Assembly (NCBI RefSeq): GCF_041361345.1
Contig: NZ_JBGKAD010000002.1
Span: 62,001 to 126,000 of the forward strand
DNA length: 64,000 bases
From: Halobaculum sp. MBLA0147
GTDB taxonomy: Archaea; Halobacteriota; Halobacteria; Halobacteriales; Haloferacaceae
Direction: 5' to 3'
Shown: piece after piece, positions 27,936 through 64,000 of the stretch
How the letters are laid out: each line of letters opens with the position of its first letter
How positions within the stretch are numbered: position 1 is the stretch's first letter
The notes under the pieces: generated by a model
Told to the model about the DNA's origin: nothing
Database searches by the model: none
The model's input: only the letters and a program-made list of their open reading frames with translations
Made by a program: the position numbers and the translations under genes

Positions 27936-30344
27936 ATGAGTCCCGACGCAGACGGCTCCCAAGACGAAGCACGACGAGGATTGACGGACAGACAATATCA
28001 GGAGGATACAGAGGCAACAACCGTATCGGCTAACCACGAGCGGTTTCAACAACGTGTCGACGATGTTCTAAGTGCCTCAACGACCGATGAGGTAGCCAGG
28101 ACCACGGTCCAACTCATCGTCGAATCGTTCGACCTCAAGCGGGCTGCATTGTACGAGCGTGTCGGCGAGCGACTATGTTTAGTCACCGAAAATACAGATA
28201 CAAAAACGCCCTTCCCTGAGCACCTCTCGATCCAGCACGACACACTCCGTCAACTTCTCCACGATGGTACCGTTGTGAGCGGTACTCCACCGAGTGCGAT
28301 ACCAATAGACAGTGAATGGTGTGCGGCACCGACGGGTGAAGGCGGACTGATCGTCGGTGTAGAACCTAAATCAGATCGAGAGCTAATCATAAATCACAAT
28401 CGGCTGTCTCGGTTCGCGACAGTAGTTGGGACAGCACTCCATCTTGTAGACGATGGGGTAAGTCGTGACCAATTCACCACGACCGCCTCAGATTTGTCCA
28501 GTGAAGATATCTTACCAGCCGTTATTCGAGAGGTTTACCCTGACTACGCCTTCCTCTACGATGCCGACGGGACCTATCAAGACGTGCTCTTGGGTCAACG
28601 TGACGTATCTGCCATTACTCGTGAGGAACTCATTGGGTCGACGCTCACAGACGTATTCCCGGCGCAGACAGCAAGTCGGATTCACGATGCAATCCGGACC
28701 GCAGTCGAGACTGACACACGACAGACCGTCGAGTACCCAGTCGATGCAGTCGAAGGCCGCCGCGTGTTCGAGGGCGTTGTGACTCCTATCGTCGTCGATG
28801 GGACCGATCAGGCCGTCTTGATCGCGCGTGATGTGACCGAACGGTCACAGCGGGAATCCAAACTCAGGCGCGTACAGAGGCGGTCTGAGTGGGTCCTGGA
28901 GTCGACGACCGCAGCAACCTGGAGTATCGAGTTTGACGGGGATGGAATCTCATTTCTCCAAGGAGCCACCGAATGTCTGTTTCCGGAAGCGGCCCCAGAT
29001 GTCTCCTCCGTAATCGAGTACTTTGATATCATCGTCCATCCAGACGACAGAGAACGAGTCGTCGACGCCTACGAGGCGGTTCGAGATCGACGTCAAGAAG
29101 AAGTCCACATCACCTATCGGACACACCCCGAACACGGTGACGTGCGGTGGCTCGCCGTAGACGGATTTGTCAGAGAAACTGACACTCACCACGAACTCGT
29201 TGGGCATTCCGCCGATGTAACTATCGAGAAACAGCAAGAACACCAACTCGAGACGCTCCACCAGTTCACACATGCGATCACGGTCGCCGATTCCGTCGAG
29301 GGGATTTGTCGGCGAACCGTTGAGGCGAGTAGAGCTGCTTTTGGATTCTCTGCGTCCCTCGTCAGCCTCGTTTCTGAAGATAGGCTGGTGCCCCAAGCGA
29401 CTACAGAAGACCTCTCGTCAGAGGAGTTCTCCGAAATACCCGTCAACGAAGGAATCGCTGGACGGACGTACAGGACCGGCGAGTCAATGATCGTCAACGA
29501 CACAACCGTGGAGGAGAGAGTATATGATGATCCACCATATCGGTCACTACTCAGCGTTCCGATTGGTGACCACGGGAACTTGCAGGCCGCCGCAGAACGG
29601 CCGGGTGCGTTCGACGCCACCGATCGCGAACTTGCCGAGACACTGGCACAGTACACCGAGAATGCGCTGGACCTTTTAGAATCAAGAAAGGACCTTAAAT
29701 ACCAGAATAACCGGTTGGAAAAATTCGCGTCTGTCGTATCACACGACCTCCGAAATCCACTGAACGTTGCGTCCGGCCGGATCGAACTCGCTCAACGCGA
29801 GTGTGGGAGTGATCACCTCGCGGCGGCAGAAGAGGCTATCAACCGGAGTCAGCAGTTAATCGACGATCTCCTCACATTGACCAATTCGGAATCCGACCAT
29901 TCTGAGAGCACTGTGTTCCTCGAAACTATCGCCAAGCAGGTGTGGACGACCATCGATGGACCCGAGGCAATACTCGATATCCAGACTGGAGTCAATGTGA
30001 CCGCCACAGAGTCACGACTCCGTCAACTGATAGCGAACTTGTTCGGGAACGCCGTCAAACATGGTGGTCCGGCAGTCACAGTGACGGTCGAGACAGTCCG
30101 TTCGGACGACAAGCCTGTCGGATTCGCGGTCACAGACGACGGCTCGGGTCTGCAGACTGACGAATACGACCACGTGTTCGATCACGGATATACGACAGCT
30201 GACTCTGGGACGGGCCTCGGCCTCGCAATCGTCTCTGACGTGGCCAGCGAGCACGGGTGGGAAGTATCGATGATGGAGAGCGCTGCTGGCGGTGTCCGTG
30301 TCGAAGTGACTGGTGTCGAGACGAGATATGACGAAACAAAATAA
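27936..30344 (+). CDS. Multi-domain GAF-PAS-PAS-GAF sensor histidine kinase
   Basis: This is an 802-residue soluble kinase. In order it has an N-terminal GAF-like domain (about 35-180), a PAS domain with YPDYAFLYDADGTYQDVLLG (about 200-310), a second PAS of the PAS_3 type (about 325-440, IIVHPDDRERVVDAY), a second GAF domain (about 455-590, ASLVSLVSEDRLVPQA), and a HisKA helix with His603 in VVSHDLRNPLNVA. The HATPase domain ends it, with IANLFGNAVKHGG, VTDDGSGLQTDE and TGLGLAIVSDVASE. All catalytic motifs are intact. Codon use is AT-richer than in the flanking genes. The first PAS closely resembles that of the kinase at 8204. Its 3' end is 8 bases from the convergent hybrid gene. Confidence 0.9.
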   Translation: MSPDADGSQDEARRGLTDRQYQEDTEATTVSANHERFQQRVDDVLSASTTDEVARTTVQLIVESFDLKRAALYERVGERLCLVTENTDTKTPFPEHLSIQHDTLRQLLHDGTVVSGTPPSAIPIDSEWCAAPTGEGGLIVGVEPKSDRELIINHNRLSRFATVVGTALHLVDDGVSRDQFTTTASDLSSEDILPAVIREVYPDYAFLYDADGTYQDVLLGQRDVSAITREELIGSTLTDVFPAQTASRIHDAIRTAVETDTRQTVEYPVDAVEGRRVFEGVVTPIVVDGTDQAVLIARDVTERSQRESKLRRVQRRSEWVLESTTAATWSIEFDGDGISFLQGATECLFPEAAPDVSSVIEYFDIIVHPDDRERVVDAYEAVRDRRQEEVHITYRTHPEHGDVRWLAVDGFVRETDTHHELVGHSADVTIEKQQEHQLETLHQFTHAITVADSVEGICRRTVEASRAAFGFSASLVSLVSEDRLVPQATTEDLSSEEFSEIPVNEGIAGRTYRTGESMIVNDTTVEERVYDDPPYRSLLSVPIGDHGNLQAAAERPGAFDATDRELAETLAQYTENALDLLESRKDLKYQNNRLEKFASVVSHDLRNPLNVASGRIELAQRECGSDHLAAAEEAINRSQQLIDDLLTLTNSESDHSESTVFLETIAKQVWTTIDGPEAILDIQTGVNVTATESRLRQLIANLFGNAVKHGGPAVTVTVETVRSDDKPVGFAVTDDGSGLQTDEYDHVFDHGYTTADSGTGLGLAIVSDVASEHGWEVSMMESAAGGVRVEVTGVETRYDETK

Positions 30345-56230: not shown

Positions 56231-58519
56231 TCAGTCGTCGGCGATGGCGTCGCGGGTCCCCGCGGCACCGGTGACCGTGTCGTCCGGGTCGTCGGCCGCG
56301 CGGCGACGGAACAGTTTCGCGACCACGTCGCCCGCGAACAGCAGCGTCCCGAGGATGATCAGCGTGTCACCCGGCAGCCGCGCCCAGAACAGCGCCTGCA
56401 CGAGACTGCCCTCGTAGAACGCCAGCGAGCGAGCGGCGTCGTACCCCTGCGTGAAGGCAGTCTCCAACTGGAGGAACCCCACCGGGAGCACGGAGACGAA
56501 CACCATCAGCACCAACCCGGCGTTGAGCGTCCAGAAGGACCGGCGGAGCCACCGCTCGCTCCAGTTCCGGGTCGTGAACCGCAGCGCGTAGACGGCCATC
56601 CCGAGCGCGAGGAAGCCGAACGCGCCGAACATCGCCGCGTGGGCGTGGCCCACCGTCAGGTAGGTGCCGTGCTCGTAGTAGTTCACCAACGGGAGGTTGA
56701 TGAAGAAGCCGAGCACGCCCGCGCCGACGAAGTTCCACAGGCCGGAGGCGACGATGAACATGAACGGCAGCGTGTACGGGAACGAGTCGCCGGCCGTCGC
56801 CATCGCCCGGTACTCGTTGATCGCCTCGAAGAGGATCACGACCAGCGGGATCAACTCCAGCGTCGAGAACGCGCTCCCGATGGGGATCCACACGTCGGGC
56901 ATCCCGATCCACCAGTAGTGGTGCGAGACGCCGATCACGCCCGTGCCCATCACGAGCAGCGCCTCCAACATCACCGCCTTCTCCGCGGCACGACGCCGCA
57001 GGAGGTTCATCGACACCAGTGTGAGGCCGACGACGCTGACGATGAAGAACTCGAAGGCGCCCTCCACCCACATGTGGACGACCCACCACCGCCAGAACTC
57101 CGTGACGGCGATGTTCGTCTGGGGGGTGAAAAAGAACCCGGCGGTGAACAACAGCGCGATGGAACCGCCCGCGTAGAGGATCATGTGCGAGAGCCCGTAG
57201 CGTGGCTCCTCGGCGAGCAGCGGTCGCAGGCCCCGTGCCGCGAGCACCGCCCACCCGAGGAAGCCGGCGAGGAGACCGACCTGCCACAGTTTGCCGACCT
57301 CGAGGTACTCCAGACCCTCGTTGCCGAGGATCCACCACAGCGGCCCGTCGAGGTAGCCGTGTGCACCGAGCCAGATGCCGGTGAACCCACCGACCACGAC
57401 GACGACGAGTGCGCCCAACAGCCCCCTCACGTACCGCGCCTGGTTCGGCGGCTCGTAGCCCGTCAACAGTGGTGGGAGGAACAGCCCGGCACCCAGCCAC
57501 AGTGTGGCGATCCAGAGGATGCCGAGGTCGATGTGGTACGTCTTCGCCATCGCGAACGGGAGCACCTGGAGGATACCGACGCCGAACACCTCCTCGATCC
57601 CGAAGAACGCTCCGCGTTCGACGTAGTAGTGCGCGAGGAGGCCGCCGAGGAACACCTGTGCGGTGAACAGCAACGCCGCGACGGGCACGAACAACACCGC
57701 GGCACGCTGACTCGGCAGCAGGTCCAACTCGTCCGGGTACGGGACACTCACCCCCGTCGTGTCCGGCTCGGGGAGTTCGATCGACTTGTAGAGCCAGACG
57801 CCGATCCCGGCGCCGGCGACGAGCAACACCATCGCGATCACGCTCCAGGTCATCGAGGAGACCGGGGGCTCGTTGCCGGCAGTGGGCTGGTAGGGCCACT
57901 CGTTCGTGTAGCTGTGGTCGCCGTTCGGCCGGTCGGTGTGTGAGATCCACGCGGTCCACAGCGCGAAGTCGGCGAACTGCCGCGCCTCCGTCTCGGAGTC
58001 GATCATGTCCACCGGGACGCCGCGCTCGGCGGCGCCCTCGTGGTACCGCTCGACGTACTCCTCGCGGACCTGCTCGTGGGCGTACACCTCGGCTGCGGAG
58101 TAGTCCACCGTACCGTCCGCCGGTGTGCCGTCGGAGAGGTCCGACTCGACGACGCTGTCGACCGCGGACTGTTCGGGGCCGGGGAGCGCGTCGTAGGGCT
58201 CACCGTAGCGCTCCTCGGCGTAGTAGGTCCGCATGTACTGTACCTTCAGTTCCAGCGTGTTGGCCGTGTAGTCCGGACCGAAGTACGCCCCGTTGCCGAG
58301 GATCGACCCGTGGTTCATCAGCCCGTCACGCTGGAACACCGCCTTGCCCTCCTGAACCGCCGTCCGGGTCGTGATCTGCTCGCCGTCCGGCCCCACCGTC
58401 TCCTTGGGGATCGGGGGAGCCTCCTGGTACGCGACGAACGCGCCGGCGCCCATCACGATCAGGTTGACGACGAACGCGACCACGAGGAGTCTCGCGAGGG
58501 TACGACGTGTCACCTGCAT
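56231..58519 (-). CDS. norB: Quinol-type nitric oxide reductase (qNorB)
   Basis: This is a 762-residue single-subunit nitric oxide reductase, which reduces two NO to N2O at a haem b3/non-haem iron centre. It has an N-terminal membrane helix (TRRTLARLLVVAFVVNLIVM) and a large soluble domain fusing the NorC-like part without a c-haem (NHGSILGNGAYFGPDYTANT). The helices of the catalytic core carry haem and metal ligands in TYHIDLGILWIAT, WWVVHMWVEGAFE, GVSHHYWWIG and VGHAHAAMFGAFG. The Glu residues of the NO reductase family (VEGAFEFF) are present. Electrons come directly from quinol. ATG 58519 follows a GATACAAGG box. The promoter is shared with the divergent halocyanin through a repeat array. 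Confidence 0.96.
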   Translation of the reverse strand: MQVTRRTLARLLVVAFVVNLIVMGAGAFVAYQEAPPIPKETVGPDGEQITTRTAVQEGKAVFQRDGLMNHGSILGNGAYFGPDYTANTLELKVQYMRTYYAEERYGEPYDALPGPEQSAVDSVVESDLSDGTPADGTVDYSAAEVYAHEQVREEYVERYHEGAAERGVPVDMIDSETEARQFADFALWTAWISHTDRPNGDHSYTNEWPYQPTAGNEPPVSSMTWSVIAMVLLVAGAGIGVWLYKSIELPEPDTTGVSVPYPDELDLLPSQRAAVLFVPVAALLFTAQVFLGGLLAHYYVERGAFFGIEEVFGVGILQVLPFAMAKTYHIDLGILWIATLWLGAGLFLPPLLTGYEPPNQARYVRGLLGALVVVVVGGFTGIWLGAHGYLDGPLWWILGNEGLEYLEVGKLWQVGLLAGFLGWAVLAARGLRPLLAEEPRYGLSHMILYAGGSIALLFTAGFFFTPQTNIAVTEFWRWWVVHMWVEGAFEFFIVSVVGLTLVSMNLLRRRAAEKAVMLEALLVMGTGVIGVSHHYWWIGMPDVWIPIGSAFSTLELIPLVVILFEAINEYRAMATAGDSFPYTLPFMFIVASGLWNFVGAGVLGFFINLPLVNYYEHGTYLTVGHAHAAMFGAFGFLALGMAVYALRFTTRNWSERWLRRSFWTLNAGLVLMVFVSVLPVGFLQLETAFTQGYDAARSLAFYEGSLVQALFWARLPGDTLIILGTLLFAGDVVAKLFRRRAADDPDDTVTGAAGTRDAIADD

Positions 58520-58546: not shown

Positions 58547-58555
58547 CTTGTATCG
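58547..58555 (-). promoter_or_regulatory. TATA-like promoter of norB
   Basis: Minus strand GATACAAGG is centred about 32 bases upstream of the norB ATG at 58519. The opposing halocyanin promoter (GATTGAGTA, about 58762-58770) lies on the other side of the repeat array. Confidence 0.55.
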
Positions 58556-58586: not shown

Positions 58587-58740
58587 CGAACGTGTTCGGC
58601 CCGTTCCCACGGCGTGAGAACGCCGGGCCGCGTTCGACCTCGGTCCCACGTTCGGGTCACGGGAACACCGGATCGTGTTCGACCTCGGTCCCACGTTCGG
58701 GTCGCGGGAACACCGGAACGTGTTCGGTCTCGGTCCCACG
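58587..58740. repeat. 45-bp tandem repeat array with dyads between norB and halocyanin
   Basis: Units begin at 58618, 58663 and 58708 (45-bp period; the third is cut short at 58740). A shortened degenerate unit at 58587 precedes them. Each full unit carries an interrupted palindrome: GAACGCCGGGCCGCGTTC, GAACACCGGATCGTGTTC and GAACACCGGAACGTGTTC. The fifth arm base changes together with its partner (G:C versus A:T). The degenerate unit contains CGAACGTGTTCG (58587-58598). The array fills the space between two opposing TATA boxes and reads as a regulator-binding cluster. Confidence 0.85.
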
Positions 58741-58790
58741 CCGCGGGAGTCGGCGAGGGGGGATTGAGTACGAGGAGGGAACGGCCGTCC

Positions 58791-59360
58791 ATGTCGCAGA
58801 CGACCGTCAGTCGACGCGAGATCGTACGGGCCGGTGCCGCCGCGGTCGCAGTCGGACTGGCTGGCTGTTCCGGTGGCTCCGACGGGACCGACACACCCGC
58901 CGACTCGGGTGAGTCGGGTGGCGAGTCGACGCCGTCCGCGATGGCGAGCGAGTCGAGCGGGTCCGGCGGTGGCGGCGAGTCGGGTGCCGGGAGCGGGTCG
59001 AGTGGGGGCGCCAGCGCCTCGTTCGACGGCTGGCTCTCCGACGTCGACAACTACGACGGCGTCGTCGACGAGACCGGTAGTGACGCCGTCACGGTCGAAG
59101 TCGGCGTCCAGAACGGAGCCGGCGCGTACGGGTTCGGGCCCGCCGCCGTCCGTGTGTCGACGGGGACGACCGTCACCTTCGAGTGGACGGGGAAGGGGGC
59201 GAGTCACAACGTGGTTCAGAAGGGAGGTGGCTTCGAGAGCGAGCTCACCGCCGAGGAGGGTCACACCTTCGAGCAGACGTTCGACTCGGCGGGGACGGTG
59301 AAGTACCTCTGTCGGCCTCACGAGCCGATGGGAATGAAGGGGGTCGTTATCGTGGAGTAA
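58791..59360 (+). CDS. Halocyanin-type blue copper lipoprotein
   Basis: This is a 189-residue surface-anchored type-1 copper protein. A Tat signal (TVSRREIVRAGAAAV) and lipobox LAGC (Cys26) lead into a Ser/Gly-rich linker. The cupredoxin domain has copper ligands His139 (SHNVVQ), Cys174, His177 and Met182 in CRPHEPMGM. It would shuttle electrons at the outer face of the membrane, perhaps to or from denitrification enzymes. It is divergently transcribed from norB across the repeat array, so they are probably co-regulated. A GAGGAGG sequence lies 12 bases before ATG. Confidence 0.95.
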   Translation: MSQTTVSRREIVRAGAAAVAVGLAGCSGGSDGTDTPADSGESGGESTPSAMASESSGSGGGGESGAGSGSSGGASASFDGWLSDVDNYDGVVDETGSDAVTVEVGVQNGAGAYGFGPAAVRVSTGTTVTFEWTGKGASHNVVQKGGGFESELTAEEGHTFEQTFDSAGTVKYLCRPHEPMGMKGVVIVE

Positions 59361-62032: not shown

Positions 62033-62046
62033 CCGAACACGTTCGG
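62033..62046. promoter_or_regulatory. CCGAAC-N2-GTTCGG dyad between divergent genes
   Basis: CCGAACACGTTCGG has perfect 6-bp arms around AC. It lies 38 bases from the DUF2249-like start and 44 bases from ATG 62090, a symmetric operator position. The core CGAAC-N2-GTTCG also occurs at 58587-58598 in the norB/halocyanin repeat array, suggesting the same regulator. Confidence 0.6.
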
Positions 62047-62089: not shown

Positions 62090-62788
62090 ATGAATCTCCG
62101 GACACCCTTCGGCGGCGGCGACGCGACGTTCGACGACCGTGGTTCGTTCGTCCCCGAGCACCTCCCCGATCCGGGACCGTTCCTCGAGCCACACCGCGTC
62201 CTCCGTGACGAGGACCACGTGGTCTTCCACGAACTCACGCGGACGCTGTTCGAGGAACGGGGCGTGTACGACGTGACGTTCGACTACAATCTGGCGGAGT
62301 TGAACCTGGACCGGCGACACGAGACGGCCGGGTTCCGGTACGCCGTCGAGCAGTCGGCCGGCGGCGAGGGCGGTCACCCGGACACTGGCGGGGAGGACGC
62401 GGACGGCGGGGCGGCACCACTGGATGCGGTCGACGGACCGGTTCTCCGAGCCGAGTTCACACCGACGACGGAGTTCTGCCCGCAGACGGAGACGCTCACC
62501 GTCGGGGCGTTCCGCGCGTGGAACGGCCTCGCGGACCGGCACGACTACGCGCTCGTTCGGGTGAGGGTCGCTCCGACACACCACGACAGCGCCGCGGTCG
62601 ACGACCGACTCCGCGAGTTGGAGCGACAGTTCGTCGCGTCGGGTGAGGTCGGCGGTAGCGGAGAGCAGAGCGGAGCGGCCTCCGGCGACGCCGACAGTGG
62701 TACCGACACCGCCACCGCGAGCGACGAGAGCGACGACACCGGCGACGGGGTCGGCGCACGTCTCGCCGACTGGAGCGCGGGATTCTGA
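62090..62788 (+). CDS. Unknown haloarchaeal protein of the nitric-oxide cluster
   Basis: This is a 232-residue protein I do not recognise with confidence. Residues about 20-75 form a mixed domain (FLEPHRVLRDEDHVVFHELT, GVYDVTFDYNLAELNLD). An acidic linker follows, then VLRAEFTPTTEFCPQTETLT and GAFRAWNGLADRHDYALVRV, with a conserved-looking C-P-Q-T-E motif. A hydrophilic Ser/Asp-rich tail of about 45 residues ends it. The single Cys in a strand-turn context might be redox- or metal-related. It is divergent from the DUF2249-like gene across the dyad at 62033. Confidence 0.72.
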   Translation: MNLRTPFGGGDATFDDRGSFVPEHLPDPGPFLEPHRVLRDEDHVVFHELTRTLFEERGVYDVTFDYNLAELNLDRRHETAGFRYAVEQSAGGEGGHPDTGGEDADGGAAPLDAVDGPVLRAEFTPTTEFCPQTETLTVGAFRAWNGLADRHDYALVRVRVAPTHHDSAAVDDRLRELERQFVASGEVGGSGEQSGAASGDADSGTDTATASDESDDTGDGVGARLADWSAGF

Positions 62789-62809: not shown

Positions 62810-64000
62810 TCACGACCGGAACGCCGTCACCCACCGAGGGAGCAGTCGCCGGAGCGGCGCCGGGTCGTGCCGGACGACGACGCCGATCAGGTTCGCACTC
62901 GCCAGCACCGCACTCGTCGCGAGGAGACAGAGCCCGGCGAGCACGACCGGCGTCGGCCAGCCGAGCGATCCGGCCGCGACGAGTGTCGTCACACCCGCGG
63001 CGGAACAACAGAGGTCGACGACCGCGACGCGGCCGTCGTAGAGGTCGTCGACGGACGGGACCGGCTCGTAGCCCAGCCGGTCGCTGTACACCTCGACCCA
63101 CACGAGGAACGGGACGACGTGGTAGAGCGTCCCGACGACGACGTGGCCGATCACACCGCCCACGAGCAGCGGCACCGCGACGGGCGGCCCGAGCAGTGTC
63201 GTCGGTGCCGTCGGCGCGGCCAGCCACGTCGGGAGCGCGAGTGCGACCCAGCCGAGTCCCGCCACGACGACCACGACGTACCGCCGGAGCGTCGCACCGA
63301 ACGGGACGACACTCGCCAGCAGTCGGCGCCCGACGGCGACCAGCGCGGCCGCGAGTCCGAGACAGAGCACGACGCCGCCGAGCCGACCGACCGTCTCGCC
63401 GTTGGGTGCACTCGCGAGTCGCCCGGCGGCGAGCAGTACCACACCGACCGGGAAGGCGACGGACGCGACCCACTGGAGGCGGCGGTCGTGTCCGTCGGCG
63501 TCGGTCTGCGTGAACATCGCCACCAGTTGCGACAGCGCGCCGACGATCGTGACGATCACGACACCGAACACAGCCAGTGTGAGGTGTGCGCTCCGCACCG
63601 CGAGTCTGTCGAGGCCGAGTCGGCCGAGACCGGCACGCCCCCACACCGGCGTCGCGTAGCCGACGGCCAGCAGGACGCCGAGTACGCTCGCGAGCACCAG
63701 GAACCCCAGCGCGGCGAGGAAGTGTCGTTCCGTCCGATCCCACGGAGCGGCGGTCCACAACGTCCGACCGACGTTGTAGCAGAGGAGCCAGAACCCACAC
63801 AACAGGAGTACGCCGCCGACCGTGATCGGGATCGGTGCGACGGTCCAGAGACCGCCCGCCAGCAGGAGGAGGCCGACGACGAGGAGTCGCCCCTGCCAAC
63901 GGGCGAGGCGGCGAGAGTGCAACGCGACGCCCGACCACACCGGCACGAACTGCGTCAGCGCGCCCGCGATCGTGACACAGACGAACCCGACCAAGAGGAG
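62810..64000 (-). CDS. Multipass haem-copper-oxidase-I/NnrS-like membrane protein (partial)
   Basis: The gene runs off the right edge; about 396 residues are visible, with ten or more hydrophobic helices. Histidines occur at helix positions typical of the haem-copper oxidase subunit I superfamily: AHLTLAVFGVVIVTIVGALS, GHVVVGTLYHVVPFLVW and FVPVWSGVALHSRRLARW. It also resembles NnrS-type proteins associated with NO stress. There are too few ligands in view to prove catalytic haem sites. Its presence in the norB neighbourhood supports a nitrogen-oxide link. The 5' end, including the start codon, is outside the window. Confidence 0.75.
   Translation of the reverse strand, partial: LLLVGFVCVTIAGALTQFVPVWSGVALHSRRLARWQGRLLVVGLLLLAGGLWTVAPIPITVGGVLLLCGFWLLCYNVGRTLWTAAPWDRTERHFLAALGFLVLASVLGVLLAVGYATPVWGRAGLGRLGLDRLAVRSAHLTLAVFGVVIVTIVGALSQLVAMFTQTDADGHDRRLQWVASVAFPVGVVLLAAGRLASAPNGETVGRLGGVVLCLGLAAALVAVGRRLLASVVPFGATLRRYVVVVVAGLGWVALALPTWLAAPTAPTTLLGPPVAVPLLVGGVIGHVVVGTLYHVVPFLVWVEVYSDRLGYEPVPSVDDLYDGRVAVVDLCCSAAGVTTLVAAGSLGWPTPVVLAGLCLLATSAVLASANLIGVVVRHDPAPLRRLLPRWVTAFRS

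Follow-up and report, generated by a model that had tools for sequence, protein, structure and literature searches.

The analyzed window is a stretch of 64,000 nucleotides from Halobaculum sp. MBLA0147, in which a norB-type nitric oxide reductase gene and a halocyanin (blue copper protein) gene are divergent and separated by an intergenic region of 271 bp (Table 1). This region contains a tandem array, in which 45-nt copies begin at positions 58618, 58663 and 58708, the second and third being 89% and 67% identical to the first, and a diverged fourth unit lies at 58588. Tandem Repeats Finder reported a period of 45 with a score of 190, the top of its 20 rows for the window, and, with small indels allowed, an alternative reading that spans 58588 to 58745 with 3.7 copies. 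When 45-nt segments of the intergenic region were compared to each other at lags of 15–90, the best self-match was 43/45; the maximum for 300 Markov shuffles was 30, and the runner-up among 236 window segments of like size was 36. The initial annotation had described three units with a 45-bp period, and this observation is sound, because the self-match exceeds all 300 shuffles and every other like-sized segment of the window. A terminator scan found no intrinsic terminators; the accompanying promoter scan is bacterial and does not apply to archaea.

Table 1. Features of the norB/halocyanin locus (window coordinates).
Feature	Position	Strand	Remarks
norB-type nitric oxide reductase gene	56231..58519	-	762 aa; Pfam COX1 and NorB_cytochrome_c-like; ATG at 58519
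TATA-like stretch, norB	58548..58555	-	putative, by sequence reading; 29-36 nt from ATG
Dyad A0, CGAACGTGTTCG	58587..58598	.	perfect; 68 nt from norB ATG; PWM score 20.0, rank 1 in window
Element B0	58604..58620	+	17-bp near-palindrome TTCCC...GAGAA, beside A0; read from sequence
45-bp tandem array	58618..58740	+	2.7 copies; 3.7 counting the diverged unit from 58588
Dyad A1 (inner)	58625..58636	.	left arm with 3 mismatches, right arm GTTCG intact; PWM score -1.3, rank 349
Element B1	58644..58664	+	respaced TCCC-N13-GGGA; GGGAAC end provides the left arm of unit 2 in the initial annotation
Dyad A2 (inner)	58670..58681	.	left arm with 2 mismatches, right arm intact; PWM score 9.9, rank 15
Element B2	58689..58709	+	respaced TCCC-N13-GGGA; GGGAAC end provides the left arm of unit 3 in the initial annotation
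Dyad A3, GGAACGTGTTCG	58715..58726	.	one mismatch; 65 nt from halocyanin ATG; PWM score 16.9, rank 5
Element B3	58734..58748	+	TCCC-N7-GGGA, usual place after A3; read from sequence
Weak TATA-like stretch, halocyanin gene	58763..58771	+	putative, by sequence reading
Halocyanin (blue copper protein) gene	58791..59360	+	189 aa; Pfam Copper-bind; ATG at 58791
Further exact dyad A	62034..62045	.	45 nt before gene 62090-62788

It is extremely improbable that the repeat encodes a peptide in frame with halocyanin or forms a structured RNA. The period of 45 is divisible by three and an open frame runs from 58371 into the halocyanin gene; however, this frame overlaps the norB start, and its upstream part contains 3% D+E and 21% K+R, compared to 13% and 5%, respectively, in halocyanin. 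The coding repeat was rejected on this difference in composition, and the structured RNA on its fold z-score of 0.58.

Dyad A and the 45-bp unit

The conserved core of the 45-bp unit is a 12-bp dyad, CGAAC-N2-GTTCG, hereafter dyad A. Its central pair is variable: among 65 norB sites, the two bases are A in 45 and G in 14, and T in 45 and C in 15. Sites were scored with a PWM built on 64 norB sites of relatives, whose own scores have a minimum of 9.2 and a median of 20.0. By sequence, A1 and A2, the inner copies, are probably either relics or auxiliary sites of low strength. Because the copies agree in their right arms and over much of the 45-bp unit, however, the inner ones could still matter.

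The initial annotation read each unit differently, as an 18-bp dyad, GAACRC-N6-GYGTTC, whose arms change together between copies, as expected of a symmetric contact. This dyad straddles two conserved elements: its left arm comes from the right arm (GGGAA) of a second element, B, and its right arm from that of A. The GAAC with which each 45-bp unit begins belongs to the end of an element B. The covariation amounts to a single paired change, G..C in unit 1 versus A..T in units 2 and 3, and says little, because the right-hand base of the pair falls on one of the two free positions in the center of A. That the 18-bp dyad is nevertheless the true operator of a separate regulator is very improbable; it is perfect in three units and, when up to 2 mismatches are allowed, matches 36 places in the window versus 18.2 expected, but its arms belong to A and B, and the 15 exact places found by a genome search comprise the 3 array units and 12 scattered elsewhere.

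Dyad A in relatives and the denitrification regulon

We examined 104 distinct norB upstream regions, i.e., 110 loci minus 5 duplicates and 1 partial, with the window's own region counted; the loci are the best 30 matches of one search and the best 80 of 153, which is not a random sample. Allowing one mismatch at most, dyad A was found within 400 bp in 85/104 regions (Markov control, 5.2) and was missing from 19/104. It ends 63–72 nt from the ATG in 61/104 regions, at the same threshold (Markov control, 0.2). Upstream of halocyanin genes (300 bp searched, own region included), dyad A was present in 21/30 regions, mostly at 40–45 or 65–80 nt, and missing from nine.

Halorubrum and genus g24 (L026-L030, L057-L084) form a second promoter class, in which A ends ~40–43 nt from the norB ATG and often a further dyad lies upstream. 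In Halobellus rarus (L082), three 26-bp tandem copies are located just upstream of the norB A dyad, ~80–160 nt upstream of norB; this is a different local tandem duplication in the same promoter. One 250-kb replicon carries norB together with a halocyanin gene twice, with equal match scores (G092:C2:4185-9222 and 216983-222021), suggesting a large duplication.

Dyad A resembles an operator known from Haloferax mediterranei. According to the available text of PMC10062603, the semi-palindrome CGAAYATDKTYG of this organism precedes the ATG of nor by 66 nt, that of nos by 69 nt and that of nir by 79 nt, and mutation of its first base lowers the activity of the nor and nos promoters, under anoxia. 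The motif is described in narp, nirp, norp and nosp (PMC10062603 and PMC11218638, as far as available), and in the accessible part of PMC11218638 eight occurrences are given for a nirK-nor cluster that also includes halocyanins and a bacterioopsin-type activator. The available text of both papers, from 2023 and 2024, describes the regulator binding this haloarchaeal denitrification motif as unknown. The two systems share a 12-bp dyad with the same arms, a similar distance to nor (68 nt here and 66 nt there), and the presence of the motif upstream of genes for halocyanins and bacterioopsin activators within a nirK-nor cluster. They differ in the central pair, which is AT in the published systems and GT/AC here, and in the gene arrangement, as norB and the halocyanin gene are here divergent and share one region with tandem 45-bp copies in between. 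Compared to the published consensus, A0 is off by one central base and A3 by two bases; the distance of A3 falls just below the 66–79 nt range of the known operator. The proposal of the initial annotation that norB and the halocyanin gene are under shared control is supported, in that each gene has a symmetric candidate regulator site at a conserved distance.

The genome contains 38 exact A sites, and five of these are located within 8.6 kb spanning norB to nirK; the Poisson probability of 2e-8 applies to a fixed stretch, whereas this stretch was picked after the sites were seen. Of the 31 A sites outside the cluster, a coding-frame heuristic assigned 24 to coding frames, but it did the same for 2 of the 5 cluster sites; two exact sites in the window, at 30034 and 40974, were left out of this classification. 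Genes 62090-62788 and 62810-63994, which lie beside further A dyads, have no Pfam match; the latter looks like a multi-span membrane protein and, judged by eye, is presumably NnrS-like. One of the five cluster sites lies 99 nt before a gene with a Pfam multicopper oxidase match, which we take to be NirK-like from its sequence and neighbors.

Between norB and nirK, ~1.1 kb past the right end of the window, lies a gene for a 220-aa regulator (L144:9148-9810) with another of the five A dyads 38 nt before its ATG. Its sole Pfam match is HTH_10 (152-204); without PAS/GAF and near denitrification genes, it fits the description of NarO/DmsR-type proteins. Homologues of this regulator are found within 3 kb of norB in 11/80 loci, and in nine of these 11 the start is preceded by an A dyad. 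According to the two papers cited above, NarO was described by Hattori et al. in 2016. The likeness to NarO/DmsR (Bat-type HTH_10 proteins of Haloferax volcanii and Halobacterium) extends to a short HTH_10 protein, its place in a denitrification cluster and the dyad upstream; the binding is predicted and the orthology to NarO is putative. These observations fit a Bat/DmsR/NarO-like protein that would both act on the regulon and belong to it. The genome contains 16 HTH_10 genes, another of which could be the true binder. The regulator could also be a different one, because, according to the available text of PMC10062603, H. mediterranei has no NarO homologue.

Origin and role of the tandem array

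We searched 170 genomes of the family for the array and did not find it outside the window: the non-window matches listed were all at most 65 bases long, with a best E-value of 7.7e-5. A second genome match (G000:C3:106249-106312), which lies within a reading frame or at its border, was taken as chance; the gene adjoining this frame is, by its sequence, presumably nitrite/sulfite reductase-like. Among the 104 norB regions, the search for halocyanin found this gene divergent from and adjacent to norB in two others. In Haloarchaeobius iranensis (L076), exact A dyads lie 68 nt from each ATG with a third in between, and there is no 45-bp repeat in the intergenic region; in Halorarius litoreus (L093), there is one A dyad in ~120 bp. 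The initial annotation named the absence of its units from relatives with the same gene order as a refutation; this applies to the array, as the 45-bp units are absent from both species, but not to dyad A, present as three exact copies in the former and as one in the latter. A closer comparison was impossible, because norB gave no match in any of the genus's three remaining genomes, of which one is only 74% complete. In the array, it is the segment on the halocyanin side, comprising A and B, that is tandemly duplicated. The switch sequence was already known, whereas the tandem-copied stretch is a local variant, unseen in the relatives examined.

The initial annotation further suggested cooperative binding of a regulator across the 45-bp units. 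In such an array, the four units would act together and the degenerate inner dyads would help to load the regulator on both promoters. The right arms are intact in all four units, Haloarchaeobius has an extra exact dyad midway in the same intergenic region, and 13/104 norB regions, own included, carry at least two A dyads within 300 bp. Conversely, the spacings between A dyads in the window are 38, 45 and 45 bp, i.e., 3.6 and 4.3 helical turns, and are not near whole turns. Close A-dyad spacings in relatives (10, 32, 32, 35, 42, 51, 52, 52, 53 and 53 bp) are near whole turns in 9/10 cases; it should be noted that this pattern was noticed afterwards and that five of the spacings are from one genus. 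Same-face cooperation is therefore disfavored, and an intact site in every unit, which it calls for, is lacking in A1 and A2 (three and two mismatches, respectively). Given spacings off the helical phase, decayed inner dyads with poor PWM scores, and two same-order relatives without the 45-bp units, cooperation across the array is unlikely.

The array may instead be neutral, i.e., a recent tandem duplication whose regulatory effect is limited to parting the outer sites. Its absence elsewhere in the 170 family genomes is consistent with this, as are the substitutions: units 1 and 2 differ at five positions, three of them within the 12-bp dyad, and the left arm of A therefore shows no sign of selection. 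There are, however, few substitutions on which to base a judgment, and the halocyanin operator itself lies in the third unit, which means that at least that copy is in use. We regard complete neutrality as a real possibility, but lean against it. The locus is, in our view, quite probably a divergent norB/halocyanin promoter of the denitrification regulon, with A operators of the known type and a tandem duplication whose inner copies are weak or relict.

Element B and the proposed mechanism

The part of the promoter that the examined literature covers least is element B, which was not found in the available text on haloarchaeal nor and halocyanin promoters. The alignment comprised 71 sequences, namely 65 norB regions (with the window's own) and six halocyanin regions with A at 60–85 nt; in 58 of them a B box (GGAA or GAGAA) follows A by ~16–26 nt, compared to 0/104 for a control stretch. 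In the consensus, B takes the form of an inverted repeat (TTCCCA-N5-TGGGAA type); this symmetry is a property of the consensus only, and covariation within B (z of 0.7 at the best center) does not support pairing. The exact form TCCCA-N5-TGGGAA is absent from the window's genome. It lies close upstream of halocyanin genes in seven of eight places in three genomes of the genus Halobaculum (G092, G067 and G004); five of these places also turned up in the wider survey that follows. Across the order, the picture is mixed: 24 distinct exact sites were listed on the plus strand of the 44 loci examined, and a halocyanin match lies within 1.2 kb of six, of which five are in Halobaculum-genus genomes. 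At six halocyanin loci of the genus (L161-L165 and L169), the promoters have B of the TCCCA-N5-TGGGA type without the A dyad. In such A-less halocyanin promoters, B is possibly an unreported copper or NO operator.

We propose the following mechanism, in which the steps of binding and activation are predictions. A symmetric 12-bp operator A stands at the standard distance upstream of both norB and the halocyanin gene. Its regulator, most likely the Bat/DmsR/NarO-like HTH_10 protein of the same gene cluster, whose own gene is preceded by A, would bind A under low-oxygen or denitrifying conditions, and both genes would be activated. The 45-bp array represents the tandemly duplicated halocyanin-side segment (A and B); its two outer A dyads have been retained, and the inner two have lost the left arm. 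A more tentative proposal, which we consider possible but rather doubtful, is that the promoters are bipartite: B would be a separate operator for an NO- or copper-type signal, centered ~53 nt before the ATG in norB and halocyanin promoters, and the array would amplify A and B together, tuning the electron carrier to the reductase.

The locus brings together a position-conserved dyad, divergent norB and halocyanin genes, and an HTH_10 gene with its own dyad, and is therefore a compact test case. The presence of B before norB and halocyanin genes suggests that it may be a second input.
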